Origin: Stenotrophomonas indicatrix
GTDB taxonomy: Bacteria > Pseudomonadota > Gammaproteobacteria > Xanthomonadales > Xanthomonadaceae
Assembly (NCBI GenBank): GCA_041545745.1
Contig: CP168152.1
Location: 3,966,001-4,030,000 of the forward strand
Direction: 5' to 3'
DNA: 64,000 nucleotides
Position numbers and translations under genes: made by a program. Positions 30,064 through 45,727 of this stretch are shown in pieces (the first letter of the stretch is position 1; each line of letters starts with the position of its first letter). Under the pieces are notes generated by a model that saw only the letters and a program-made list of their open reading frames with translations, was not told the origin of the DNA and searched no databases.

Positions 30064-31653
30064 TCACCCTGGGCGGACATGCTTCTTGCCACGAAGCATC
30101 AGACTGCCAGCCGCACAGGCAAGCATGGCAATGCCTGCCACAAGGAAGGCATCGCTGTAGGCCAGCAGCAGTGCTTCGCGATGAACGATCCTGTCCAGGA
30201 TCGCGAACGCCTGCTGCCGTTCCAGTGCATGTCCATTGCCGAACAGAGCAGTGGCGCTGTCCATGGGCGCTTTGGCCAGCATCCTGACCAGCTCGACCAC
30301 GCGCGCCTGGGTCGCTGGCGCGAAGGACGTGACCGATTCCCCGATGTGCAACGCATGCAGTCGCTCCCGCGTCACGATGAACTGGCTGGCTACAGCGATA
30401 CCGATCGCGCCACCCACATTGCGCACCATCGAGAACACGCCTGCCGCCGAGCCGAGCTCAGTGCGTTCCAGCCCTTCCACGGCCATCACACTGAGTGCGA
30501 CCACGATCAGCGATTGGCCGATGCCACGCACGATCAACGACGGCACGATGACGTTGCTTGCCGCGTTGGCATCCAGGTGGATGTTCATCAGGCAGCCCAC
30601 CGCCATGATGACGAAGCCCAGCACGATGACGGTCCGCACGCTGGTGCGCTTCATCAGCGGCGGCGTGGCGAAGGACATGATGAACTGCACGATGCCGTAC
30701 GGAATCATGGTCAACCCGATCTGGCGAGCGTTGTAACCATGCACATCGGCAAAGTAATTGGGGATGAGGAACACCACCCCGAACACCACCGCGCCGAAGG
30801 TGAACTGCATCAGGCTGGCCAACCCGAAGTTGTAGCGGGAAAGCAGCCGCAGGTTGAGGAACGGCTCGCTGCGGCGCAGCTCGATGGCGACGAATGCCAC
30901 CAGGCCCACTGCGGCAATGAGCGCTGCCTCGATGATGAACGTCGAAGAGAACCAGTCCTTGCGACCGCCCTCCTCCAGCATGATCTGCAGCGCGGACAAG
31001 CCCAGGGCCATGGCAATGATGCCGCCCCAGTCGCCGCTCCGGAACTTGTGCAGCGCCATCGGCTGCGGCCGGATCGACCAGCCGATGGCGGCCAGCAGCA
31101 GCAGGCCGGGCGGCACCTGCAGATAGAAGATCGCCCGCCAGGAATAGACATCGGTCAACCAACCGCCGAGCGATGGCCCCGCCGCCTGCGCCACGTTGTT
31201 GGCAATGGCGAACAACGCCATGCCAAACGGATGTTTTGATGATGGCAGCTCGGTCACGATGAGCTGGAACGAAAGTGGGATCAGCACACCGCCGAACGCG
31301 CCCTGCAGCGTGCGCGCCAGGATCATCGCGTTGATGTTGGGTGCGATCGAGCAGGCCATCGAGAAGAGCACGAAACCTGCGGCCCCCACCATCAGCACGC
31401 GGCGCACGGTGAAAACCGATGCCAGCCACGCTGCCAACGGAATGACGATGATCTCCGCAACAAGATAGGCCGTGGTGATCCACGATCCTTCCTCGAAGGT
31501 GGCACCCAATGATCCGCGCACATCCGGCAGCGACGCATTGGTGACGTGCACGTTCATGCCCGCCATGAAGCAGCCAACCACGCCACCGATCACCGCGACC
31601 CACGCACGCAGTGATACTGCATCCTCGGCAGGGGTTGCCATGGTGGCGCTCAT
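30064..31653 (-). CDS. EmrB-like MFS drug transporter (DHA2 family)
   Basis: A 529-residue inner-membrane transporter with about 14 membrane segments. The DHA2 signatures are present: MNVHVTNASLPDVRGSLGA with the motif D1 region, and WRAIFYLQVPPGLLLL (motif C neighbourhood). It would exchange drugs for protons and pass them to the adaptor encoded just upstream. Overlaps the adaptor gene by four bases (ATGA). Last gene of a three-gene efflux operon. Confidence 0.9.
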   Translation of the reverse strand: MSATMATPAEDAVSLRAWVAVIGGVVGCFMAGMNVHVTNASLPDVRGSLGATFEEGSWITTAYLVAEIIVIPLAAWLASVFTVRRVLMVGAAGFVLFSMACSIAPNINAMILARTLQGAFGGVLIPLSFQLIVTELPSSKHPFGMALFAIANNVAQAAGPSLGGWLTDVYSWRAIFYLQVPPGLLLLAAIGWSIRPQPMALHKFRSGDWGGIIAMALGLSALQIMLEEGGRKDWFSSTFIIEAALIAAVGLVAFVAIELRRSEPFLNLRLLSRYNFGLASLMQFTFGAVVFGVVFLIPNYFADVHGYNARQIGLTMIPYGIVQFIMSFATPPLMKRTSVRTVIVLGFVIMAVGCLMNIHLDANAASNVIVPSLIVRGIGQSLIVVALSVMAVEGLERTELGSAAGVFSMVRNVGGAIGIAVASQFIVTRERLHALHIGESVTSFAPATQARVVELVRMLAKAPMDSATALFGNGHALERQQAFAILDRIVHREALLLAYSDAFLVAGIAMLACAAGSLMLRGKKHVRPG

Positions 31654-32786
31654 GGCGCGCGATCCGCGCGTGTGTCGATGGCCGCTACCACCGACATCCC
31701 CGGCCGCAGGAACGACAGCTTCGCCTGGCCGGCATCCACGGTGATACGCACCGACATGCGCTGGACGATCTTGGTGAAGTTCCCGGTCGCGTTGTCGGGC
31801 GGCAACAGCGCGAACTGTGCGCCGGAGGCAGGGGCAAAGCTTTCCACGTGTCCCTTCAAGGCGCGTCCGCCGAGTGCATCGACCTCGATCTCCACAGGCT
31901 GGCCCGGCGCCACGCGTTCCAGCTGCACCTCTTTGTAGTTCGCGACGATGTAGATCTGGTCCGGCACGATCGCCATCAGCGGTGCGCCGGCACCCACGTA
32001 ATCTCCCATCCGCAAGCTGCGTTGACCGACCGTTCCGGCCTGCGGTGCACGGATCACCGTGTGCTCCAGGTCAAGGGTGGCAAGGGCCAGACCTGCCTGG
32101 GCCTGCACCAATGCTCCCTGCGCCTGGTCAAGCGCGGCGCTCGCGCGCTCACGCTCGGTCACCAGTACCCTGGTGTAAGCCGTGCTCGCAGCCACCGCAG
32201 CGCGCGCAGCATCCGCGTTCGCTGCAGTGCGCTGTGCGCTGGCATCTGCGGCCTCTAGGTGCTTCGCATCCGATGCCTGCTGGTCGGCAAGCAGCCGTTC
32301 CCGGCGGTAGGCCTGGGCGGCCTGACGGAGATCTGCCTGGTGCGCCCGCAGATCTGCGGCAGCAGCGGCAATCACGCTCTGCTGCCGCGTGCTCTGCGCG
32401 TCGAGGTTGGCGATGGCAGCCCGCTGCGCCCTTACCTGCGCCGTCGCCACTGCGACCGCGCCTTCGGCCTGGACCAAGCGCGAGCGATAGTCCCGATCAT
32501 CCAGCGTGGCCAGAATCTCACCCACGGCCACGTGCTGGTTGTCGCGCACCCGGACCGTGGCGATGTAGCCAGCGATTCGTGGATTGACCGTTACGATGTC
32601 GGCCCTGACGTAGGCGTTGTCGGTGCTGACCTGGAAGCGGCCTACTGTCCACCAGCGCAGCCCGGCACCGCTGCCGGCCAGGACGAGCAGCACGATTGCG
32701 CCGATGACCATGGGCCTGCGCTTCATCCGCAGGAGGGAGCGGGGCGAACGAACGGGTGCGCCGCGTGGAATGTCTGTGTCTGTCAT
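31650..32786 (-). CDS. EmrA/HlyD-family membrane fusion protein
   Basis: A 378-residue periplasmic adaptor with a short cytoplasmic N-terminus, one membrane segment (about 26-43, MVIGAIVLLVLAGSGAGL), a biotinyl-lipoyl-like domain split around a long coiled coil rich in Ala/Arg/Gln (about 95-230), and a beta-barrel domain. AYVRADIVTVNPRIAGYI is the EmrA family start of the lipoyl domain. It links the MFS pump to the outer-membrane factor. Confidence 0.9.
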   Translation of the reverse strand: MTDTDIPRGAPVRSPRSLLRMKRRPMVIGAIVLLVLAGSGAGLRWWTVGRFQVSTDNAYVRADIVTVNPRIAGYIATVRVRDNQHVAVGEILATLDDRDYRSRLVQAEGAVAVATAQVRAQRAAIANLDAQSTRQQSVIAAAAADLRAHQADLRQAAQAYRRERLLADQQASDAKHLEAADASAQRTAANADAARAAVAASTAYTRVLVTERERASAALDQAQGALVQAQAGLALATLDLEHTVIRAPQAGTVGQRSLRMGDYVGAGAPLMAIVPDQIYIVANYKEVQLERVAPGQPVEIEVDALGGRALKGHVESFAPASGAQFALLPPDNATGNFTKIVQRMSVRITVDAGQAKLSFLRPGMSVVAAIDTRADRAP

Positions 32787-32821
32787 GTCGTCTATCGGGG
32801 AGTGCGGGGGAAAAGGGTGGA

Positions 32822-34288
32822 TCAGCGCGCGGCGTCATCGCTGCGGGTGATGGTGGGGAGATGTACGGCAGGCGCCTGCTCCCAGCCGCCGCCAAGCGAC
32901 CGGAACAACGCAATCTGGTCGGCGGCGATCTCCGCCTCGGCGGACGCGGCCATGGCCTGTGCCTCGACATCGCGGCGCTCCGCCTCGAGCACGTCCAGCT
33001 CGCTCGCCGCGCCGGCGTGTCGGCCCACCTGCGCCAGTCGAAGCGCCTCACCGCTCTGCACGGCAGCTGTCTTCAGCGCAGCGTGCTGACGCAGTGCTGC
33101 CTGGTAGGTCGCCAGCGCCTGTTTCACGTCTTTCAATGTGGCCAGGATCACCGCATCGAAACGCGCAAGCGCGGCGTGTTCCTGCGCTTCGGCATCGGCG
33201 ATCTGCGCGCGCGCCGCGCTGCTGTTCGGGAAGCGCCAGGACAAGGCCGGGCCCAGGCTCCAGGCGATCGACCCGTGATCGCTCAACCCGCCGGGCGTCG
33301 GCGCCGAACTGGCCACGGTACCCAGAATGGAAACCGTGGGATACAGGCTCGCGGTAGCCACGCCGATGCGCGCGGTGCTGGCTTCCAGCCGGCGCTGTGC
33401 CTCCCGGATGTCCGGCCGCCGCTGCAGCAGCGTGGTGACATCACCGATCGGAAGCGGGGTATCAAGCTGCGGAACTGCGGCGCAGCTGGTTGCGTCTGCG
33501 GGCAGGTCGTCCGGCGTCCTCCCGGTAAGCACGGCCAGTGCATACAGGGCATTCTGCCGACCTGCCTCCAGCGCGGGAATGGCAGCGCGGGTCTGCTCGA
33601 CCAGCGCAGCGGCACGCGCGACATCCAGTGATGTCGCATTCCCTGCATCACGCTGGGCCGTCTTCAGTGCCAGGCTGCGACTGACCAGGGCCAGCGAGCG
33701 GTGGGCAATGTCGGCACGCGAGGCGTAGCCACAACTTTCCACGTAGGCGCGCGTGGTTTCGGCGGCAACGACGACCCGCACGCTGTCTTCGGTGGCCTGG
33801 ATCGCCTCGGCATCTGCCCGCGCCGCCTGGATGGATCGAGCAATCCGGCCAAACAGATCCAGGCTCCAACCGGTTGCGAATCCCACGCCATGGCGTTGCC
33901 CGGTGCGGACTGCGGTCTGCTCCAGTGCGGCCGCGATCTGGTCGCTCATCGTGCTGCCATAGCCGACATCGCTGGACACCGTAGTGGTCGGCAGCCGATC
34001 ACCCTCGCGTTCGCGGAGCACCGCGTAGGCGGACTGCAGGTTGGCCGACGCAACCCGCAGATCGCGATTGTTTTCCAGGGCCTGGATGACCAGCGCATCC
34101 AGCGTGGCATCGCCATACAGGCGCCACCATCGGGGCACGGCGGGCGCGCCCGTGATCGCGTCGTTGTCGACGACAGTCATCGGCGGCGGGGCGAGGGTGG
34201 AACGTGGCGAACTGCTGGGACCGACCGCGCACCCACACAGCGCGGAAGAGACCAGAAAAGACAACAGCAAAGGACGGAAGACAATCAT
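32822..34288 (-). CDS. Outer-membrane efflux factor (NodT/OprM family lipoprotein)
   Basis: A 488-residue TolC-like channel. The signal peptide ends with a lipobox (SALCGC), so the mature protein is a lipoprotein. WWRLYGDATLDALVIQALENNRDLRVA is the family N-terminal signature; two OEP repeats follow (about 60-250 and 270-470) with LLQRRPDIREAQRRLEA between. First gene of the operon OMF-adaptor-MFS. ATG at 34288 is chosen for the signal peptide; a GTG at 34324 would add a charged leader. Confidence 0.9.
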   Translation of the reverse strand: MIVFRPLLLSFLVSSALCGCAVGPSSSPRSTLAPPPMTVVDNDAITGAPAVPRWWRLYGDATLDALVIQALENNRDLRVASANLQSAYAVLREREGDRLPTTTVSSDVGYGSTMSDQIAAALEQTAVRTGQRHGVGFATGWSLDLFGRIARSIQAARADAEAIQATEDSVRVVVAAETTRAYVESCGYASRADIAHRSLALVSRSLALKTAQRDAGNATSLDVARAAALVEQTRAAIPALEAGRQNALYALAVLTGRTPDDLPADATSCAAVPQLDTPLPIGDVTTLLQRRPDIREAQRRLEASTARIGVATASLYPTVSILGTVASSAPTPGGLSDHGSIAWSLGPALSWRFPNSSAARAQIADAEAQEHAALARFDAVILATLKDVKQALATYQAALRQHAALKTAAVQSGEALRLAQVGRHAGAASELDVLEAERRDVEAQAMAASAEAEIAADQIALFRSLGGGWEQAPAVHLPTITRSDDAAR

Positions 34289-34383
34289 TGACGGGGTACT
34301 TGGGGTGGCGTGTGCCCAGGACACACATCACATCACCCGCCACACTGTCCTTCTCCCGCCTACTGGACTACCATCGTCTAGAT
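34289..34383. promoter_or_regulatory. Divergent promoter region, efflux operon / AraC regulator
   Basis: A 95-bp space between divergent starts, where both promoters must lie. It contains a small inverted repeat (GTGTG, seven bases, CACAC at 34310-34326) that could be an operator. Too short to hold anything else. Confidence 0.45.
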
Positions 34384-35160
34384 ATGGACAGAAAACGCAC
34401 TGTCAGGGCGTGCCACGCAACCGAGCGCCCCGTTGCGGCATTGGCCACCCGACATCCTCACGGCGAACACATTGCCGCGCACCGCCATGCCCGCGCGCAG
34501 TTGATCCACGCGCTGACCGGGGTCTTGACGGTCATCAGCGCCGAGGGAAGCTGGGTCGTGCCATCCGGCAGGGCCGTGTGGATGCCAGAGGACGTGGAGC
34601 ATCGGATCCGCATTGCCGGCGAGGTCGCGATGCGGACCATCTACGTTGCACCCGGGATACGGCCGGATCTTCCCACCGGTTGCGAGGTCATCGAGGTCTC
34701 CGCGCTGCTGCGCGAGGCCATCATTGCTGCCACCAGCATACCGCTGGACTATCGCGATGGCGGGCGGGACCACCGCATCATGGAACTGATCCTGGACGAG
34801 ATCGAAGTGGCGCCGCGGCTTGGGCTGCACGTTCCATTACCGCGCAACGCACATCTGCTGCGTCTGTGCGAATGGATGATCGCCGAGCCTGCCGAGCCTG
34901 TAACGCTGGACGATCTGGCCGCACGGATGCACGTCAGCGGACGGACAGTGGCACGGCTGTTCCACCGCGAGGTCGGGATGAGTTTCGGCGACTGGCGGCG
35001 GCGGATGTGCCTGCTGCTCAGCCTGCCCCGGCTGGCCTCGGGGGCATCCATCCTGGAAGTATCGCTGGAGCATGGCTATCTGAGCCCCAGCGCCTTCTCG
35101 GCGATGTTCCGCCGCTCGCTCGGGGTGTCACCCACCGAGTACCTGGTTTCCAAAGCATGA
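34384..35160 (+). CDS. AraC-family transcriptional regulator
   Basis: A 258-residue regulator with an N-terminal cupin (about 10-100; HRHARAQLIHALTGVLTVI and WMPEDVEHRI) and a C-terminal pair of helix-turn-helix motifs (about 160-255; TLDDLAARMHVSGRTVARLF and the second with GYLSPSAFSAMFRRSLGVSPTEY). It is divergent from the efflux operon and is its likely regulator. ATG at 34384; the longer frame upstream would cover the promoter region. Confidence 0.88.
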   Translation: MDRKRTVRACHATERPVAALATRHPHGEHIAAHRHARAQLIHALTGVLTVISAEGSWVVPSGRAVWMPEDVEHRIRIAGEVAMRTIYVAPGIRPDLPTGCEVIEVSALLREAIIAATSIPLDYRDGGRDHRIMELILDEIEVAPRLGLHVPLPRNAHLLRLCEWMIAEPAEPVTLDDLAARMHVSGRTVARLFHREVGMSFGDWRRRMCLLLSLPRLASGASILEVSLEHGYLSPSAFSAMFRRSLGVSPTEYLVSKA

Positions 35161-35399: not shown

Positions 35400-37238
35400 T
35401 TACTCCACCGTAACGCTCTTGGCCAGGTTGCGTGGCTTGTCCACGTCGGTGCCGCGTGCCAGCGCGGTGTGGTACGCCAGCAGCTGCACCGGGATGGTGT
35501 GCACCACCGGGCTGAGCACGCCGGCATGGCGCGGGGTGCGGATCACGTGCACGCCCTCGGACGCGTTGAAGTTGCTGTCCTGGTCGGCGAACACGAACAG
35601 CTCACCGCCACGCGCACGCACTTCCTGCATGTTGGATTTGACCTTCTCCAGCAGGCTGTCGTTGGGCGCGATCACCACCACCGGCATGTCCTCGTCCACC
35701 AGCGCCAGCGGCCCGTGCTTGAGCTCACCAGCCGGGTAGGCCTCGGCGTGGATGTACGAGATTTCCTTCAGCTTGAGCGCGCCTTCCAGGGCGATCGGAT
35801 AGTGCAGGCCACGGCCCAGGAACAGCGCGCTGCTCTTGCGCGCGAAGCGTTCGGCCCATGCAGCGATCTGCGGCTCCATGTTCAACGCATGCTGCACACT
35901 GCCCGGCAGGAAACGCAGCTGCTCCAGGTAGTCCGCTTCCTGTGCGGCATCAACGCGGCCATGCAGCTTGCCCAGCACCACGGTCAGCTGGAACAGCGCG
36001 GCCAGCTGGGTGGTGAAGGCCTTGGTCGACGCCACGCCGATCTCGGCGCCAGCGCGGGTGTAGCAGACCAGTTCGCTGGCGCGCGGAATCGCGCTTTCCG
36101 GCACGTTGCAGATCGACAGCGTGTGCTTGTGGCCCAGCGACTTGGCGTACTTCAGCGCTTCCATCGTATCCAGCGTTTCGCCGGACTGGGAGATGGTCAC
36201 GATCAGGTGCTTGGGATTGGCATACGCGGCGCGATAGCGGTACTCGCTGGCGATCTCCACGCTGCACGGCAGGCCGGCGATGGCCTCGATCCAGTAGCGC
36301 GCGGTCAGGCCCGAGTAGTAACTGGTACCACAGGCCAGAATCTGCACGCCCTCGATGCCCGACAACACCGCTTCGGCATTCCTGCCGAACAGTTCGGCCG
36401 GGAAGCCACCGGCGTCGATCGCCGCTTCGATGGTGTCGCCCAGTGCACGCGGCTGCTCGTGGATTTCCTTCTGCATGAAGTGCCGGTACGGGCCCAGCTC
36501 CAGCGAGGCCAGCGAGACATCGGAGAGATGCACATCGCGCTCGATCGACTGATCGTTACCGTCGAAGATGCTCACACCATCACGGCGGATCTCGGCGGTG
36601 TCGCCCTCTTCCAGGAAGATCACCTTGCGCGTGGCCGACAGCACGGCCGACACGTCGGATGCCACGAAGTTCTCGCCCTCGCCCAGACCGACCAGCAGCG
36701 GGCAGCCCATGCGGGCGCAGACGAAACGTTCCGGCTCGGCACGGCTGACAACAGCCAGTGCATAGGCACCGGTCAGTTCCTTGACCGTGTGCTGCAGCGC
36801 GACCAGCAGGTCATCGCCGTTCTTCAGGTGGTGGTGGATCAGGTGGGCGATCACTTCGGTGTCGGTCTGCGACTCGAAGGTATAGCCCAGCGTGCGCAGC
36901 TTCTCACGCTGCTCTTCATGGTTCTCGATGATGCCGTTGTGCACCAGCGCCACGCCATGGCTGATGTGCGGATGCGCGTTCGCCTCGGTGACACCGCCAT
37001 GGGTGGCCCAACGGGTGTGGCCGATACCCAGGCTGGCGTTGAAGCCTTCAGCCTCGGCAGCAGTTGCCATCTCCGAGACACGACCGGTACGGCGCACGCG
37101 GCGCACGTCGGGCCGTTCGGCTTGATCGATCACCGCAATGCCGGAGGAATCGTAACCGCGGTATTCCAGTCGCTTCAGTCCTTCGATCAGCAGCGGCACC
37201 ACGTCGCGCCCGGCGATCGCACCCACGATTCCACACAT
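35400..37238 (-). CDS. glmS: GlmS, glucosamine-6-phosphate synthase
   Basis: A 612-residue enzyme that makes glucosamine-6-phosphate from fructose-6-phosphate and glutamine, the first step toward peptidoglycan and LPS amino sugars. The mature N-terminus is the nucleophile Cys2 ([10 protein letters not shown]), followed by the glutaminase domain (1-240) and two SIS isomerase domains (about 285-610; [23 protein letters not shown]) and the C-terminal KSVTVE. ATG at 37238 is chosen because Cys must follow Met directly; an ATG three codons upstream is rejected. No glmS ribozyme is present. GlmU, the next pathway enzyme, lies 9 kb away. Confidence 0.96.
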
Positions 37239-37275: not shown

Positions 37276-37348
37276 CCTGCGTGTCCGCCAGCCCCCTCCT
37301 GTCCGCTTAATGAAAGTGTCCGGAAAGGTGTCCGCGGACACCCGGACA
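37276..37348. promoter_or_regulatory. Candidate enhancer (response-regulator) binding sites
   Basis: A perfect 16-bp palindrome GGTGTCCGCGGACACC (37327-37342) is flanked by further half-sites TGTCCG at 37282, 37300 and 37317 and CGGACA at 37343. The centre is about 85 bp upstream of the predicted sigma-54 start, the normal position for an enhancer-binding protein. The likely binder is the NtrC-type regulator encoded at the end of the operon. Confidence 0.65.
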
Positions 37349-37363
37349 GCAACGGTAGATCTG

Positions 37364-37376
37364 CAAATCATTGATG
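37364..37376 (-). promoter_or_regulatory. Candidate IHF site
   Basis: On the minus strand CATCAATGATTTG matches the IHF consensus WATCAANNNNTTR at all but the first position. It lies between the enhancer palindrome and the -24/-12 promoter, where IHF usually bends DNA. Confidence 0.6.
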
Positions 37377-37392
37377 GAAAAGGAAATAAAAT

Positions 37393-37408
37393 TGGCACGC
37401 TGTGTGCT
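37393..37408 (+). promoter_or_regulatory. Sigma-54 (-24/-12) promoter
   Basis: TTGGCACGCTGTGTGCT has GG at 37394-37395 and GC at 37406-37407 with exactly ten bases between, and fits TGGCACG-N4-TTGCW with one deviation. Expected start of transcription is near 37419, giving a leader of about 34 nt before the adaptor gene. Confidence 0.8.
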
Positions 37409-37452
37409 TTATGTAGGGCACCACTCTGGCACCACCGACAGGCACGAACCCG

Positions 37453-38730
37453 ATGATCCGCGACACCTCCGCCCAGGACCAGATCGTTTCCTCCGCTTCG
37501 GCCAGTGCTCCCAAGGCCGCATGGCACCGTTACCGCTGGCCGGCGCTGGCTGGCATCGCCCTGCTCGCCGGCATCGGCTGGGCCGTGCATGCCTGGTCCA
37601 ACGCCAGCCGCTCGTTCGACAGCAGCCGGGTGCGCGTGGCCGAGGTGCAGCGTGGCGACCTGGTGCGCGACATCGCCGCCGACGGCCGTGTGATCGCCGC
37701 CAACAACCCGGTGCTGTATGCGATCTCCGCCGGCACCGTCGACCTGAAGGTGGTCGCCGGTGACGTGGTCAAGAAGGGCCAGGAGCTGGCGATCATCGAC
37801 AGCCCCGAGCTGCGCAGCAAACTCGCCCAGGAGGAGGCCACCCTGGCCGGCCTGGAAGCCGAGGCCAGCCGCGCCAACCTGGATGCCACCCTGGCCCGTG
37901 CCAAGTCGCGCAAGGAAACCGATCAGGCCAGCATCGAGCGGCAGGCCGCCGACCGCGACCTGCAGCGCTACCAGCGCGGCTTCGATGGCGGTGCGGTGCC
38001 GCAGATCGATCTGGCCAAGGCCCAGGACACCCTGAAGAAGGCCGACATCAGCCTGGCCAATGCCACCACCGATGCGCGCCTGCAGAGCCAAGGCGCGGAC
38101 CTGGACGCCCGCAACAAGCGCTTGCTGGCCGACCGCCAGAAGGCCGTGGTGGCCGAAGTGCAGCGCCAGGTCGACGCGCTGACCCTGCGCGCACCGTTCG
38201 ATGGCCAGGTCGGTCAGGTGCAGGCCACCCAGGCCACCAACCTTGCTGCCAACGCGCCGGTGCTCGGTGTGGTCGACCTGTCCAAGTTCGAAGTCGAGAT
38301 CAAGGTACCGGAAAGCTTCGCGCGCGATCTGGCGATCGGCATGCCGGCGCAGCTGACCGGCGGCAACGGCCAGCCGTTCCCGGGCGAGATCAGTGCGGTG
38401 TCGCCGGAAGTGGTCAATGGCGAGGTCAATGCCCGGGTCCGCTTTGCCGCCGCCCAGCCGGAAGGCCTGCGCCAGAGCCAGCGGATGTCGGTGCGGGTGC
38501 TGTTGGATACCCGCAGGAACGTCATGAAGGTCGAGCGTGGCCCGTTCGTGGAACAGGGCAACGGCGTGGCGTACGTGATGGATGGCCGCACCGCGGTGCG
38601 CCGTCCGATCGAACTGGGCGTCAGCAGCCTGGGCGAAGTGGAAATCAAGTCGGGTGTGCAGCCGGGGGACCGCATCGTGGTCTCGGGCAGCGACCTGTTC
38701 AAGGACGCCGAACGCGTCTCCGTCAACTGA
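37453..38730 (+). CDS. MacA-like periplasmic adaptor (HlyD family)
   Basis: A 425-residue membrane fusion protein. One N-terminal membrane anchor (about 30-48, WPALAGIALLAGIGWAVHAW) is followed by a lipoyl domain (ISAGTVDLKVVAGDVVKKGQ and its partner LRAPFDGQVGQV), a coiled-coil hairpin (about 115-230) and a beta-barrel plus membrane-proximal domain ending in ISGVQPGDRIVVSGSDLF-like sequence. First gene of the sigma-54 operon; partner of the ABC proteins downstream. No outer-membrane factor gene is in the operon, so a shared TolC-like channel would be needed. Confidence 0.88.
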   Translation: MIRDTSAQDQIVSSASASAPKAAWHRYRWPALAGIALLAGIGWAVHAWSNASRSFDSSRVRVAEVQRGDLVRDIAADGRVIAANNPVLYAISAGTVDLKVVAGDVVKKGQELAIIDSPELRSKLAQEEATLAGLEAEASRANLDATLARAKSRKETDQASIERQAADRDLQRYQRGFDGGAVPQIDLAKAQDTLKKADISLANATTDARLQSQGADLDARNKRLLADRQKAVVAEVQRQVDALTLRAPFDGQVGQVQATQATNLAANAPVLGVVDLSKFEVEIKVPESFARDLAIGMPAQLTGGNGQPFPGEISAVSPEVVNGEVNARVRFAAAQPEGLRQSQRMSVRVLLDTRRNVMKVERGPFVEQGNGVAYVMDGRTAVRRPIELGVSSLGEVEIKSGVQPGDRIVVSGSDLFKDAERVSVN

Positions 38731-38761: not shown

Positions 38762-39484
38762 ATGTACATGCTCGAAATGCGTTCGGTCGCCAAGGTCTTC
38801 CGTACCGAACAGGTGGAAACCCACGCGCTGCGTTCTCTTGAACTGCAGGTCAAGGAAGGCGAGTTCGTCGCCGTCACCGGTCCGTCCGGCTCCGGCAAGA
38901 CCACCTTCCTCAACATCGCCGGCCTGCTGGAGACCTTCACCAGCGGCACCTACATGCTGGATGGCCAGGACGTCAGCAAGCTTGGCGATGATGCCCGCAG
39001 CCGCCTGCGCAACCAGAAGATCGGCTTCATCTTCCAGGGCTTCAACCTGATTCCGGACCTCAACCTGTTCGACAACGTGGACGTGCCGCTGCGCTATCGC
39101 AAGATGAGCGCCGGCGAGCGCCGCGAGCGCATCGAGAAGGCGCTGAGCCAGGTCGGCCTGGGCTCGCGCATGAAGCACTACCCGAACGAACTCTCCGGCG
39201 GCCAGCAGCAGCGCGCGGCGATTGCCCGTGCCCTGGCCGGCAGCCCCCGTCTGCTGCTGGCCGACGAACCGACCGGCAACCTGGACACGCAGATGGCGCG
39301 CGGGGTGATGGAACTGCTGGAGGAGATCAACGCCGCCGGCACCACCATCGTGATGGTCACCCACGACCCGGAACTGGCCGCGCGCGCGCAGCGCAACGTG
39401 CATATCGTCGACGGCCAGGTCACCGACCTGGTACGCGAGCCGGTGCTGGCCACCCCACGTCGCATCGTCGCCGTCAACGAGTGA
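38762..39484 (+). CDS. ABC transporter ATPase (MacB/LolD type), stand-alone
   Basis: A 240-residue ATPase. Walker A GPSGSGKT (about 40-47), Q-loop FIFQGFNLIPDLN, signature LSGGQQQRAAIARAL, Walker B LLLADEPTGNLD and H-loop VMVTHDPE are all intact. It is of the mechanotransmission (MacB/LolD/FtsE) group. Unlike MacB it is not fused to a permease. An AGAGAGG site precedes the ATG. Confidence 0.92.
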   Translation: MYMLEMRSVAKVFRTEQVETHALRSLELQVKEGEFVAVTGPSGSGKTTFLNIAGLLETFTSGTYMLDGQDVSKLGDDARSRLRNQKIGFIFQGFNLIPDLNLFDNVDVPLRYRKMSAGERRERIEKALSQVGLGSRMKHYPNELSGGQQQRAAIARALAGSPRLLLADEPTGNLDTQMARGVMELLEEINAAGTTIVMVTHDPELAARAQRNVHIVDGQVTDLVREPVLATPRRIVAVNE

Positions 39485-39494
39485 GGGCACGCCC

Positions 39495-40799
39495 ATGTTC
39501 GCCTACTACGCCCGACTGGCGGTGCGCAGCTTCCGCCGCAACAAGGTACTGACCGCGCTGATGGTGGTAGCCATCGCGCTGGGCATCGGTGCTTCGATGA
39601 CCACCCTGACCGTGTTCCATGTGCTGTCCGGCGACCCGATCCCGGACAGGAGCGACCGCCTGTTCTACGTGCAGGTCGATCCGCGCCCGCGCTCGGGTTA
39701 CCTGACCGGCGAAGAGCCGGAAACCCAGATGACCCGTTTCGATGCCGAGACGCTGCTGCGCGAGAAGCGTGGCGAGCGCCAGGCGATGATGAGTGCCGGC
39801 GCTGTGACCGTCGAACCGGAAGGCAGCACGTTGAAGCCGTTCAACATCGATACGCGCTGGACCTCAGCCGATTTCTTCCCGATGTTCAACGTGCCGATGC
39901 TGTATGGCCGCGCCTGGACGGCCAGCGACGATGACGGCCGCGCCCGCGTGGTGGTGCTGTCCAAGGTCATCAACGACAAGCTGTTCCAGGGTGCCGACAG
40001 TGTCGGCCGCCAGGTCCGTGTCGATGGCCATTCGCTGCGGGTGATCGGCGTGATGGACACCTGGAATCCGGAACCTCACTTCTTCGACCTGACCGTGGGC
40101 AACTACGGCCGCGAAGAGGATCTGATGATGCCGCTGTCCACCGCGATGGACCTGAAGTTCGGCAGCAACGGCAACATGAACTGCTTCCGCGACGGTGCTC
40201 CCGGCGACGACAGCAATTCCATCAATGCACCGTGCACCTGGATCCAGTACTGGGTGGAGCTTGACCCGTCCAAGGCCGAAGACTATCGCCGCTACCTGGT
40301 CAACTATTCGGACCAGCAGCGTGCTGCCGGCCGTTTCGAACGCCCCGCCAACGTGCGCCTGCGCAGCGTGATGGAGTGGCTGACCTTCAACAACGCGGTG
40401 CCCAGCGACGTGCGCCTGCAGATGTGGCTGGCGCTGGGTTTCCTCGGTGTCTGCCTGGTCAACACCGTCGGCCTGCTGCTGGCCAAGTTCCTGCGCCGCA
40501 GCGGTGAGATCGGCGTGCGTCGCGCACTGGGCGCCAGCCGCGGGCAGATCTTCCTGCAATGCCTGGTTGAGGCGGGCGCGGTGGGCGTGGTCGGTGGCGT
40601 GCTCGGCATCGGCCTGGCACTGCTGGGCCTGTATGCAGTGCGCCAGCAGCCGGTGGACTACGCCAAGCTGGCCCACCTGGACGGCAACATGCTGCTGCTC
40701 TCCCTCGGCCTGACCCTGCTCGCCAGCGTCGCTGCCGGTTTCCTGCCCGCCTGGCGCGCGATGCAGGTCACCCCGGCCATCCAGCTCAAGTCGCAGTAA
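39495..40799 (+). CDS. FtsX/MacB-type permease 1
   Basis: A 434-residue inner-membrane protein with a MacB topology: one membrane segment at about 18-40 (VLTALMVVAIALGIGASMTTL), a large periplasmic core domain (about 45-310), and three C-terminal segments (about 315-430) with GEIGVRRALGASRGQIFLQ, the coupling helix of this family. Eleven bases after the ATPase gene. Confidence 0.88.
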   Translation: MFAYYARLAVRSFRRNKVLTALMVVAIALGIGASMTTLTVFHVLSGDPIPDRSDRLFYVQVDPRPRSGYLTGEEPETQMTRFDAETLLREKRGERQAMMSAGAVTVEPEGSTLKPFNIDTRWTSADFFPMFNVPMLYGRAWTASDDDGRARVVVLSKVINDKLFQGADSVGRQVRVDGHSLRVIGVMDTWNPEPHFFDLTVGNYGREEDLMMPLSTAMDLKFGSNGNMNCFRDGAPGDDSNSINAPCTWIQYWVELDPSKAEDYRRYLVNYSDQQRAAGRFERPANVRLRSVMEWLTFNNAVPSDVRLQMWLALGFLGVCLVNTVGLLLAKFLRRSGEIGVRRALGASRGQIFLQCLVEAGAVGVVGGVLGIGLALLGLYAVRQQPVDYAKLAHLDGNMLLLSLGLTLLASVAAGFLPAWRAMQVTPAIQLKSQ

Positions 40800-40820: not shown

Positions 40821-42035
40821 ATGGACATCCGCCCCATCCTCAGCACCCTGCGCCGGCACAAGACCGCAGCCGCATTGATCGTGCTGGAAATCGCCCTGAC
40901 CTGCGCCATCGTCTGCAATGCCCTGTTCCTGGTCACCCAGCGCGTGGAAAAGATCAGCCAGCCCAGTGGCCTGGCCGAGAACGAACTGGTCATGGTCCGG
41001 GTCAGCGGCATCGGCAAGCAGACCAACGCCATGGCCCGCACCAACGAAGACCTGGCGTCGCTGCGCGCGATCCCCGGCGTGACCAGCGTGGCCAAGGTCA
41101 ACCAGCTGCCGTTCCGCCGCAACTCGAGCAACACCAGCATCTCGCGCGAGCGGGAGCAGGAACGCCCGACGGCCTTCGTGTCGCAGTACATGGTTGGTGA
41201 GAACGCTCTGTCCACGCTGGGCCTGCAACTGGTCGCCGGGCGAGACTTCCTGCCCAGCGAGTACATCGACCTGGAAGAAGCGCAGAAGAACCCGAAGCCT
41301 GACCGCGCCGCGCCGGTAATCATCAACCAGCAGGTCGCCGCCAAGATGTACCCGGACCAGAGTGCGCTGGGCAAGACGTTCTACATGGGCAACCAGGCCC
41401 TGCATGTGGTCGGCGTGGTCGCCCATCTGGCCACCCCCACCGATTACAACGACAACAGCACCTTGTCGATGATCCTGCCGGTACGTACCGACTTCACCCG
41501 TGGGCCGTACATGCTGCGGACCTCACCGGAACGCCGCGATGAAGTGTTGAAGGGCGCGCTGGCCGCGCTGGAGCATAACGACCCCAACCGCCTGGTGCGC
41601 GAGAAGCTGACCTACCAGGAACAGCGCGCCGACTACTTCAAGAACGACCGCTCCATGGTCGGCCTGCTGGTCACCGTGTGCATCGCGCTGCTGGTGGTCA
41701 CCGCACTGGGCATCGTCGGCCTGGCCAGCTTCTGGGTGCAGCAGCGCAGCAAGCAGATCGGCATCCGCCGCGCATTGGGCGCCACCCGTGGGCAGATCCT
41801 GCGCTACTTCCAGACCGAGAACTTCCTGCTGGCCACGCTCGGCATTGTGCTCGGCATGCTGGCGGCGTACGCCATCAACCTGGCACTGATGAACATGTAC
41901 GAGCTGCCGCGCATGCCGCTGCTGTACCTGCCGCTGGGCGCAGCGCTGCTGTGGCTGCTGGGCCAGATCGCCGTGTTCGGTCCGGCCCGCCGCGCTGCGG
42001 CGGTGCCCCCGGCCGTCGCCACGCGGGGCGCGTGA
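40821..42035 (+). CDS. FtsX/MacB-type permease 2
   Basis: A 404-residue inner-membrane protein with the same layout as permease 1: first membrane segment at about 17-40, periplasmic domain, three terminal segments, and the coupling motif KQIGIRRALGATRGQILRYF. Sequence is only distantly similar to permease 1, so the transporter is probably a heterodimer of the two. Starts 21 bp after permease 1. Confidence 0.88.
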   Translation: MDIRPILSTLRRHKTAAALIVLEIALTCAIVCNALFLVTQRVEKISQPSGLAENELVMVRVSGIGKQTNAMARTNEDLASLRAIPGVTSVAKVNQLPFRRNSSNTSISREREQERPTAFVSQYMVGENALSTLGLQLVAGRDFLPSEYIDLEEAQKNPKPDRAAPVIINQQVAAKMYPDQSALGKTFYMGNQALHVVGVVAHLATPTDYNDNSTLSMILPVRTDFTRGPYMLRTSPERRDEVLKGALAALEHNDPNRLVREKLTYQEQRADYFKNDRSMVGLLVTVCIALLVVTALGIVGLASFWVQQRSKQIGIRRALGATRGQILRYFQTENFLLATLGIVLGMLAAYAINLALMNMYELPRMPLLYLPLGAALLWLLGQIAVFGPARRAAAVPPAVATRGA

Positions 42036-42036
42036 G

Positions 42037-42417
42037 ATGCGTGCCAGCCTGCTGGTGCTGTTGTTGGCCCTGCCGCTGCCGGTACTCGCCGGCACCAGCA
42101 GCGCGCAGACGCTGGAGTGGCGCCAGGACGATGCGCGGCTGGCGCTGCGCTCGACCGAGGGCGTGGTGCGGGTGGATGTGGCCAGCCCGGAAGCCCGCTT
42201 CGGTGTGCGCAGCGGCGACCGCATCCTGCGCGTGGACGATTCGCCGGTGCGGCAGATCGAGCAGCTCGTCGACGCCGTGCAGGCGGTATCGACGCCCACC
42301 GTCTACCTGCTGCTGCGCCGCGACGGGCGGATGCTCACCGTGCCGGTGAACGTGGCCCAGTGGCGCCCCGCGCTGGCGCCGCCGGCTCCCCCGCCTCCGC
42401 CTCCGCCACGGCGCTGA
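42037..42417 (+). CDS. Secreted PDZ-domain protein
   Basis: A 126-residue protein with a signal peptide (LLVLLLALPLPVLAG), a single PDZ domain (about 40-105; ARFGVRSGDRILRVDDSPVR is the PDZ core), and a proline-rich C-terminal tail ending PPPPPPRR. No protease domain. The start codon lies one base after the permease 2 stop, so translation is coupled and the protein probably works with the transporter in the periplasm, for instance by binding a peptide or protein tail. Confidence 0.82.
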   Translation: MRASLLVLLLALPLPVLAGTSSAQTLEWRQDDARLALRSTEGVVRVDVASPEARFGVRSGDRILRVDDSPVRQIEQLVDAVQAVSTPTVYLLLRRDGRMLTVPVNVAQWRPALAPPAPPPPPPPRR

Positions 42418-43896: not shown

Positions 43897-43900
<4 letters not shown>

Positions 43901-45258
43901 AACGGCGCTCCTTCACCTTCCGCCTGTTCCTGCGCCTGCTGCCGGTGCTGGCGCTGGCTGCCGCGCTGCCGTGGCTGCTGGCCTACTGGATGGACCATGG
44001 CTGGGTGGTGACCACGGTCTCCACGATCATCCTGCTGTCATTGATGTGGTGGACACTGCGCCGCGCCACCGCACCGGTGCGCTCGTTGATGCGGGCGCTG
44101 TCCGGGACCACCAGCAGCTACCGCGACGGTGAGTACAACTTCGGCATCTACTGGCCCGGCAATGACGAACTGGGTGACCTGGTGCAGGCGCACCGCGAAC
44201 TGGGCGAAGTGCTGCGTGCGCAGCGCCAGGGCCTGGTGCAGCGCGAACTGCTGCTGGATACCATGGTGCAGAACACGCCGGTGGCGATGCTGCTGATCGC
44301 CGCCGGTGGCGATGGCATTTCCCGCGTGGTGTTCTCCAACCTGGCCGCGCGCAAGCTGCTGCACAGCGGCTGGAAGCTGGAAGGCCAGCGCATGGAAGAC
44401 GTGCTCGAGCAGCTGCCGGTGGAGCTGCGCGACGCCATCGGCCGCGGCGGCGACAGCTTGTTCGCGGTGAAGTCGGAAAGCGAAGACGGCGTGGAAGGCG
44501 ACGAGGATGACGAACAGGTCTATCACCTGTCGCGGCGCGCGTTCCAGCTCAACGGCCGCCCGCATGACCTGCTGTTGGTACGCCAGCTCACTGCCGAACT
44601 GCGCCGGCAGGAAGTACAGACCTGGAAGAAGGTGATCCGGGTGATCAGCCACGAGCTCAACAACTCGCTGGCGCCGATCGCATCGCTGGCACACTCCGGC
44701 GGCGAACTGGTCAAGCGCGAACGCTTCGACCGGCTGCCGGAGATCTTCACCACCATTGAAGACCGCGCACGGCATCTGGAAGGCTTCATCCGGGGCTACG
44801 CACGTTTCGCCAAGCTGCCGCAGCCGCAGCTGCAGACCGTGCACTGGGCGCCGTTCCTGTCCAGCCTGTGCCAGCAGATTCCGTTCACGATGGAGCGTGA
44901 ACTCGACGAGGAGCTGAGCAGCCGGATCGACATCGCCCAGTTCGGCCAGGCCCTGCTCAACCTGCTGAAGAACGCGCACGAGGCCTGCGCCGAAGCAGAT
45001 CCGCCGAACGACGACGTACAGGTGCAGCTGACCCGGCTGCCACAGTGGTTGCGGCTGGATGTGCTGGACCGGGGCAAGGGCATGAACGAGCAGGTGCTGC
45101 AGAATGCGTTGATGCCGTTCTATTCGACCAAGCGCAATGGCACCGGCCTGGGGCTGGCACTCACCCGCGAGATCGTCGAGGCGCACGGTGGCAGGGTATC
45201 GCTGCAGAACCGCACCGACGGCGGGCTGTGTGTGTCGATCCTGTTGCCGGTGGGGTAG
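43897..45258 (+). CDS. Membrane sensor histidine kinase
   Basis: A 453-residue kinase. Two membrane segments close together (about 12-30 and 36-53) leave a periplasmic loop of only a few residues, then a HAMP-like linker, a PAS domain (about 115-190), an acidic insert (about 193-206), the phospho-acceptor H252 in VISHELNNSLAP, N-box NLLKNAHEAC and G-boxes DRGKGMN and GTGLGLAL. Of the NtrB/NtrY-like class that pairs with NtrC regulators. Overlaps the regulator gene by four bases (ATGA). The lack of a real periplasmic domain suggests sensing in the membrane, in the cytoplasm or through the transporter. Confidence 0.92.
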
Positions 45259-45272
45259 GTTTGTTCTTCCTT

Positions 45273-45727
45273 CTTCTGTTGATTGCTGAAGGTTGATCAC
45301 GGTTCATGGGCGTCACTTTTCTTTTCGCGCGAAAAGAAAAGTAACCAAAAGAAACGCGCCGCCAGTCCGCGAGCCGTCGTGCTGCGCACGCCGACACCCT
45401 GCGGTGCTCGGCTCGCTTCAAGGCGGACTCGAGAAGCAGAGCAAAAGCATCCACGCATGACGTGGATCTACTGGGTGCAGCTGTGGACTTTGACTTGGGT
45501 CCGCCTTGAAGCGAGCCGAGCACCGCAGGGGAATCAGGGGCGAAGAGGTGCCGATGTCTGAGCGCAGCGAGTTCGGCACCGGCCCCTGATTCGCCGAGGA
45601 GCGCAGGGCACCGATGCGCAGCATCGGCTCGCGGCCGGCGGAACGTTTCTTTTGGTTACTTTTCTTTGCGTACAAAGAAAAGTGACACCCATTAACAATG
45701 ATCAACCTTCAGCAAGCAACAGAGGAA
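45273..45727. repeat. Large multi-branched palindromic intergenic element
   Basis: Outer arms of about 74 bp (45283-45356 and 45644-45715) are inverted copies with few mismatches, extending further to about 45273 and 45727; each arm also holds its own small palindrome around TTTTCTTTTCGCGCG. Nested inside are a perfect 32-bp inverted repeat (45397-45428 with 45499-45530), a second stem (45532-45554 with 45573-45591) and a small hairpin (45611-45627). A SMAG palindrome lies in the loop of the 32-bp stem. No open frame of note. It fills the space between the kinase and GNAT genes and may also stop transcription from both sides. Confidence 0.85.
45449..45471 (-). repeat. SMAG repeat inside the large palindromic element
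   Basis: ATCCACGCATGACGTGGAT followed by CTAC. Confidence 0.75.

Follow-up and report, generated by a model that had tools for sequence, protein, structure and literature searches.

A conserved, predicted sigma-54 promoter with a TGTCCG half-site array precedes a Xanthomonadaceae exporter operon that encodes its own candidate NtrC-type activator

We analyzed a 64,000-nucleotide stretch of the Stenotrophomonas indicatrix genome (hereafter, the window) and found that the intergenic region at 37276..37452 is, with high probability, the enhancer-promoter region of an operon that encodes an envelope exporter together with its own two-component switch, a switch that probably also drives a gene located beside trmL. 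The promoter and array are conserved in front of orthologous operons and, outside the family, co-occur with the operon's regulator. An operator and a likely regulator can now be assigned to an exporter that is nearly universal in Xanthomonadaceae.

Results

Promoter and half-site array

The control region contains the following elements:

37282..37287, plus strand, TGTCCG half-site, distal, absent from some relatives (pattern scan and alignment)
37300..37305, plus strand, TGTCCG half-site, kept in most closer relatives (pattern scan and alignment)
37317..37322, plus strand, TGTCCG half-site, 12 bp before the core (pattern scan and alignment)
37327..37342, perfect 16-bp palindrome GGTGTCCGCGGACACC (sequence scan)
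37329-37340, 12-bp core of the palindrome, TGTCCGCGGACA, identical in 76 of 79 named loci and altered at one base in the other 3
37343..37348, minus strand, inverted half-site CGGACA (pattern scan and alignment)
37364..37376, minus strand, IHF-like site CATCAATGATTTG, 8 of 9 specified bases (consensus match)
37393..37408, plus strand, sigma-54 promoter element TGGCACGCTGTGTGCT (consensus scan and conservation across named loci)

The sigma-54 element matched 11 of the 12 specified bases of TGGCACG-N4-TTGCW, the top score among the six window sites scoring at least 10, and the exact GG-N10-GC spacing that an earlier note had read at 37394-37407 was confirmed. The element at 37393-37408 contains this core within TGGCAC-N5-TTGCW, the consensus given in the accessible text of PMC7280030, and is accordingly a predicted sigma-54-dependent promoter. 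The same note's perfect palindrome stood, as did its 12/13 IHF match, a figure that includes the N positions; its count of three extra half-sites was mistaken, since four lie outside the palindrome and the inverted one had been overlooked.

Six half-sites lie within 67 bp, on the plus strand at 37282, 37300, 37317, and 37329 and on the minus strand at 37335 and 37343. TGTCCG was not enriched across the window (46 found versus 48.3 expected), whereas 6 of the 46 sites crowd this single 67-bp stretch, compared with a maximum of 4 per such stretch in 20,000 random placements. The palindrome core begins 64 bp before the -24 element, and the 12-mer TGTCCGCGGACA occurs only once in the 4.66-Mb S. 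indicatrix genome. Scans for sigma-70 promoters and terminators found none in the control region or in the 136-bp gap before the regulator gene.

The sequence CTTAAYRAAAG, located between half-sites (37300-37322), is conserved in closer relatives only and is possibly an element of the glmS promoter. We considered it as a dedicated glmS -10 element; because more distant loci that still adjoin glmS do not contain it, it is reported here as an observation.

Operon genes and the divergent glmS gene

Downstream of the control region lie, in order, the genes of the adaptor, ABC ATPase, FtsX permease pair, PDZ protein, NtrC-type regulator, and kinase; the divergent glmS heads the list below:

35400..37238, minus strand, glmS, start taken at MCGIVGA, divergent from the same intergenic region
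37453..38730, plus strand, periplasmic adaptor (membrane fusion protein), 425 aa, with a conserved MIRDTSAQD N-terminus
38762..39484, plus strand, ABC ATPase, 240 aa, LolD/MacB/DarD-like
39495..40799, plus strand, FtsX/MacB_PCD permease 1
40821..42035, plus strand, FtsX/MacB_PCD permease 2
42037..42417, plus strand, small PDZ-domain protein, 126 aa
42554..43900, plus strand, NtrC-type response regulator with receiver, sigma-54 AAA+, and Fis-type HTH domains and a GAYTGA loop (Pfam)
43897..45258, plus strand, sensor histidine kinase (domain search)

The three domains and the GAYTGA loop are those of an NtrC-type bacterial enhancer-binding protein, which bears out the earlier reading of this gene, and the top PDB matches of the regulator were NtrC-family activators. 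A long Pro/Ala-rich linker precedes its HTH. In the kinase, a hydropathy scan and reading of the sequence indicated two hydrophobic segments separated by a very short loop.

The signature MIRDTSAQD (37453-37479), unusual for a membrane fusion protein, was near-invariant in five aligned adaptor homologues from three families with overall identities down to 41%, position 3 being the sole variable residue. Directly 3' of the kinase gene lies a perfect 28-bp palindrome, ACTTTTCTTTTCGCGCGAAAAGAAAAGT (45315-45342), perhaps a terminator. Beyond glmS, the translations at 30064-35160 were read as an Emr-type MFS pump, an HlyD adaptor, an outer-membrane factor, and a divergent AraC-type regulator.

Conservation of the control region

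The adaptor was present in 52 of 61 genomes sampled at genus and order level (E<=1e-30). The family survey found it in no fewer than 213 of 247 genomes (E<=1e-70), and the absences there are soft because in most cases at most seven candidates per genome were scored. Rescoring 20 of the 34 adaptor-negative family genomes added one, G429, in which the adaptor is split into two pieces. At E<=1e-70, it was found in 10 of 369 class genomes, relatives of S. indicatrix included.

We then compared the best 80 of 453 loci (the named loci), which carry Stenotrophomonas, Xanthomonas, and bracketed Pseudomonas names, with one Luteimonas and one under Bacillus. A sigma-54 element scoring 10 or 11 of 12 was identified in 79 of the 80, starting 47-59 bp before the adaptor start, and the palindrome core lies 63-67 bp upstream of the -24 element in 79 loci. 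The core reads TGTCCGCGGACA in 76 of these and CGTCCGCGGACA in 3. The single exception, the Luteimonas locus (L278), has neither the promoter nor an adjacent glmS. The earlier note had made its proposal depend on conservation of the palindrome and the -24/-12 element before orthologous operons, and both are kept in 79 of the 80 named loci. In the 85-bp stretch compared across 78 distinct sequences, the motif columns averaged 1.66 bits, compared with 0.47 for the remaining columns. The IHF site matched 8 or 9 of 9 bases in 59 of 79 named loci, compared with approximately 3% of shuffled spacers.

Co-occurrence of the motif with the regulator outside the family

An upstream region was scored as motif-positive when it contained a sigma-54 element of at least 10/12 (GC or GT at -12) preceded, at a distance of 25-130 bp, by two or more GTCCG/CGGAC half-sites, and a protein was accepted as a regulator orthologue at E<=1e-150 and at least 55% identity. 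We checked 32 genomes for the orthologue and set aside 3 from the S. indicatrix family and 8 that did not contain the adaptor. Under this scoring rule, which was set after most upstream regions had already been viewed, the motif preceded the transporter in 12 of 13 orthologue-bearing genomes outside the family (G037, G048, G057, G058, G047, G056, G038, G046, G055, G240, G398, and G303) but in none of the 8 genomes without the orthologue (G045, G039, G052, G050, G042, G054, G199, and G226). The Fisher test yielded p=4.4e-5, a value that ignores kinship and is optimistic because the genomes are related. The thirteenth orthologue-bearing genome (G049) has four exact half-sites and a 9/12 promoter, one base short of positive, and two of the positives (G398 and G303) have GT at -12. 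Composition shuffles of the positive upstream regions gave 0 or 1 positive per 300.

This association is not mere linkage, because the regulator gene is more than 1 Mb distant from the transporter in G038, and the two are on separate contigs in both G046 and G055; the 1500 bp before the unlinked regulator gene in these three genomes contained no sigma-54 element with half-sites. In G056, the regulator lies approximately 18 kb further along the same contig on the same strand. The predicted link between the operon-encoded regulator and the TGTCCG motif is supported by these comparisons, and autoregulation can hold only in genomes in which the regulator gene is inside the operon.

The motif is missing before additional, more distantly related transporter copies (L338, L339, and L341) in genomes that do contain the regulator. 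In one Stenotrophomonas, an incomplete extra copy (L343) scored positive at the atypical position -257 and was left uncounted. Among the 21 regulator orthologues read (23 tried), the sigma-54 loop is GAYTGA in 19 and GAFTGA in the other 2; in 6 of 7 paralogues it is GAFTDA.

A second target beside trmL

Matches to the 12-mer core of the palindrome with at most one mismatch were no commoner in the S. indicatrix genome (15, forward strand) than in a reversed control (17), and the palindrome was rejected as a genome-wide regulon probe; the half-site plus sigma-54 pattern TGTCCG-N44-74-TGGCAYG-N5-TGC was adopted for this reason. This pattern had matches in 176 of 247 family genomes. Among 31 relatives, 26 contained matches, 75 in total versus 9 in the reversed control. 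The S. indicatrix genome contained six versus one in the control: two at the operon promoter, one beside trmL, one before a paralogous operon, and two isolated. Of 60 scanned loci, a set biased because the pattern itself picked them, 29 were before the adaptor, 13 before a small exported-looking protein, with trmL visible behind it in some, and 18 elsewhere, including one operon-type promoter at a contig end. The site in S. indicatrix is as follows:

C1:212718-212793, minus strand, trmL-side promoter (L128; pattern scan)

The gene after this promoter, with trmL next, encodes a protein of 158 aa that contains LxxVxVRPxxxQ repeats and whose start, judged by eye, resembles a signal peptide. It matched no significant Pfam family, and its 103 homologues are mostly unnamed or annotated as "hypothetical". 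The small, signal-peptide-like trmL-side proteins evolve fast. A VRP-repeat type occurs in Stenotrophomonas and Xanthomonas, and a short type of approximately 76 aa (GLARMPGDLGLL...C) occurs in another genus (L128, L074-L081).

A trmL-side promoter was defined as a sigma-54 element of at least 9/12 with at least one exact half-site no more than 1.1 kb upstream of trmL, which was found in 66 of 70 genomes. Such a promoter was present in 16 of the 48 operon-bearing genomes (17 if G470, with a 9/12 element and one half-site, is included) and in 5 of the 18 without the operon (p=0.77). Perfect co-occurrence of the two was therefore rejected, and the link of the regulator to the trmL-side promoter is weaker because this promoter does not track the operon within the family. 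Three of the five operon-lacking genomes with a trmL-side promoter retain operon remnants: the two-piece adaptor and a regulator piece in G429; the operon promoter and a kinase match, with no adaptor, in G531; and, in G557, the operon promoter with a match limited to adaptor residues 1-34, although the contig continues for 1.7 kb more. In the other two (G451 and G472), neither the operon nor a regulator orthologue (E<=1e-90) was found. We consider that the operon's regulator probably also drives the small exported-looking protein gene.

In 13 of the 22 genomes examined for it, a GGTG-N16-CACC box is located between the trmL-side sigma-54 promoter and the probable start of the protein. This box is the motif of a YtrA-like regulator of X. 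citri, as described in the available part of PMC6746942, and its position suggests dual control of the trmL-side gene. In two genomes (G430 and G458; L206 and L207), trmL immediately precedes the exporter operon in the same orientation, so the two loci were perhaps neighbours in the past. A further TGTCCG/sigma-54 site precedes an 86-aa protein read as FeoA-like in one genome (L073, G541).

The half-site spacing was tallied with a locus counted, where applicable, under several spacings. Inverted half-sites were separated by 0 bases in 21, 1 base in 11, and 2 bases in 5 of 33 operon promoters, and by 4 bases in 9 and 5 bases in 4 of 21 trmL-side promoters. Overlapping pairs of the TGTCCGGACA type occurred in 6 of the 33 and 7 of the 21, respectively. 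The linker before the HTH could permit the regulator to accommodate such variable spacing.

Alternative activators and targets

A search of the S. indicatrix genome for the sigma-54 AAA+ family gave 13 matches, of which 10 were strong. A paralogous activator belongs to a second exporter module:

C1:4076000-4090500, paralogous exporter module L239, own TGTCCG/sigma-54 promoter TGTCCGGAGTGTCCGAAAACGGACG + TTGGCACGATTTGTGC

Its adaptor, ATPase, regulator, and kinase are 25%, 53%, 40%, and 30% identical to those of the operon, respectively, and its fused ADOP-like permease has 812 aa. The L239 regulator, encoded approximately 71 kb beyond the operon's, has a GAFTDA loop and a very similar recognition helix (SRQSLYRKM versus SRQALYRRM), and it may recognize the same motif. 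A different sigma-54 activator such as this one could thus bind the array and control the exporter, alone or by cross-talk, an explanation that the other AAA+ proteins and the retention of the trmL-side promoter in G451 and G472 would also suit. We nevertheless consider it improbable: five of the eight motif-negative genomes (G045, G039, G050, G054, and G226) carry paralogous regulators of 39-44% identity, so paralogues do not account for the motif at the transporter, and the motif is found in all but one of the orthologue-bearing genomes, with that one nearly positive.

It is considerably less probable that the array serves mainly glmS, with the regulator bound over the glmS promoter repressing or activating the first enzyme of amino-sugar synthesis. 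The glmS gene lies within 1.5 kb in 79 of 80 named loci, divergent wherever coordinates were given, and the distal half-sites are on its side; but the array and its spacing to the -24 element are kept where glmS is not adjacent (L039, L042, L043, L047, and L055), and the best-conserved half-sites are on the sigma-54 side. A third possibility, in which a different promoter expresses the operon and this one is a degenerate remnant, is scarcely credible, with strong conservation falling precisely on the motif columns and the motif missing where the regulator is missing.

Discussion

The preferred reading, an exporter operon switched by its own two-component system, implies the following sequence of events. 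The kinase would phosphorylate the NtrC-type regulator, as their domains suggest, and the phosphorylated oligomer would occupy the array of TGTCCG half-sites, a step that the comparative data support. IHF, for which the spacer holds a candidate site, would bend the DNA between the array and the promoter. The regulator would then activate RpoN-dependent transcription by sigma-54 RNA polymerase at 37393-37408, so that exporter, regulator, and kinase rise together, and the trmL-side gene would probably respond to the same regulator. A more speculative extension, which we rate as possible but rather unlikely, is a self-contained sigma-54 module for sensing and export. In it, the kinase with its short loop would monitor what state the FtsX-type exporter is in, and the regulator would co-induce the exporter and the rapidly evolving, Sec-exported small protein encoded beside trmL, the latter being the exporter's cargo or a periplasmic accessory.

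The nearest named families for the adaptor, ATPase, and permeases include the darobactin exporter DarC/DarD, MacAB, and ADOP. Membership in these was rejected because the NCBIfam cut-offs were missed widely (DarD, 257.5 of 375 bits; MacB, 215.9 of 966; ADOP, 179.5 and 198.8 of 622.3). For the adaptor, the general RND_mfp subfamily was the sole cut-off exceeded (133 versus 94.9), and the exporter reaches no specific named-exporter cut-off among the models shown. The exporter may function like the darobactin, MacAB, or ADOP systems and is not a named member of them.

The Bce-type resistance modules of Firmicutes combine an FtsX-type exporter with its own kinase, which has a minimal extracytoplasmic loop, and an OmpR-type regulator, and their signalling depends on the transporter (flux sensing). 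The operon shares with them the FtsX-type exporter and dedicated kinase, with a short loop predicted by hydropathy only, but differs in its NtrC-type sigma-54 regulator and in the presence of an adaptor. SmaCDEF and MacABCsm of S. maltophilia carry the locus tags Smlt1651-4 and Smlt2642 onward in the accessible text of PMC11356428; an identity of the operon with either was tentatively set aside on these tags.

The QseE/QseF (GlrK/GlrR)-glmY system of E. coli comprises a two-component sigma-54 activator, three upstream activating sequences, assistance by IHF, and an envelope function (PMC6075780, in the portion available), and GlmY acts on glmS (PMC7073468, likewise). The operon resembles it in having a candidate two-component sigma-54 activator, upstream sites, an IHF-like site, and an envelope function. 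In contrast, the QseF/GlrR operator is TGT-N12-ACA whereas the operon core is TGT-N6-ACA (TGTCCG-N0-CGGACA), and the target there is a small RNA whereas here it is an exporter operon, with glmS only a neighbour. With this core and a GlrR model score of 282.8 of 763 bits, we did not assign the operon to the QseF/GlrR regulon.

No description of this operator, of its assignment to the regulator, or of a regulon with two targets was found among the papers listed in the literature searched, which covers few subscription journals. The general link is already published: sigma-54 control is predicted for, and sigma-54 promoters are enriched before, FtsX-like antimicrobial-peptide permeases (COG0577), including those of gammaproteobacteria, according to the available text of PMC12316311, a text in which no operator, regulator, or Xanthomonadaceae case was found for COG0577. 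From this general sigma-54/FtsX-permease association, the present analysis derives a specific regulon hypothesis that includes another recurrent and previously undescribed target.
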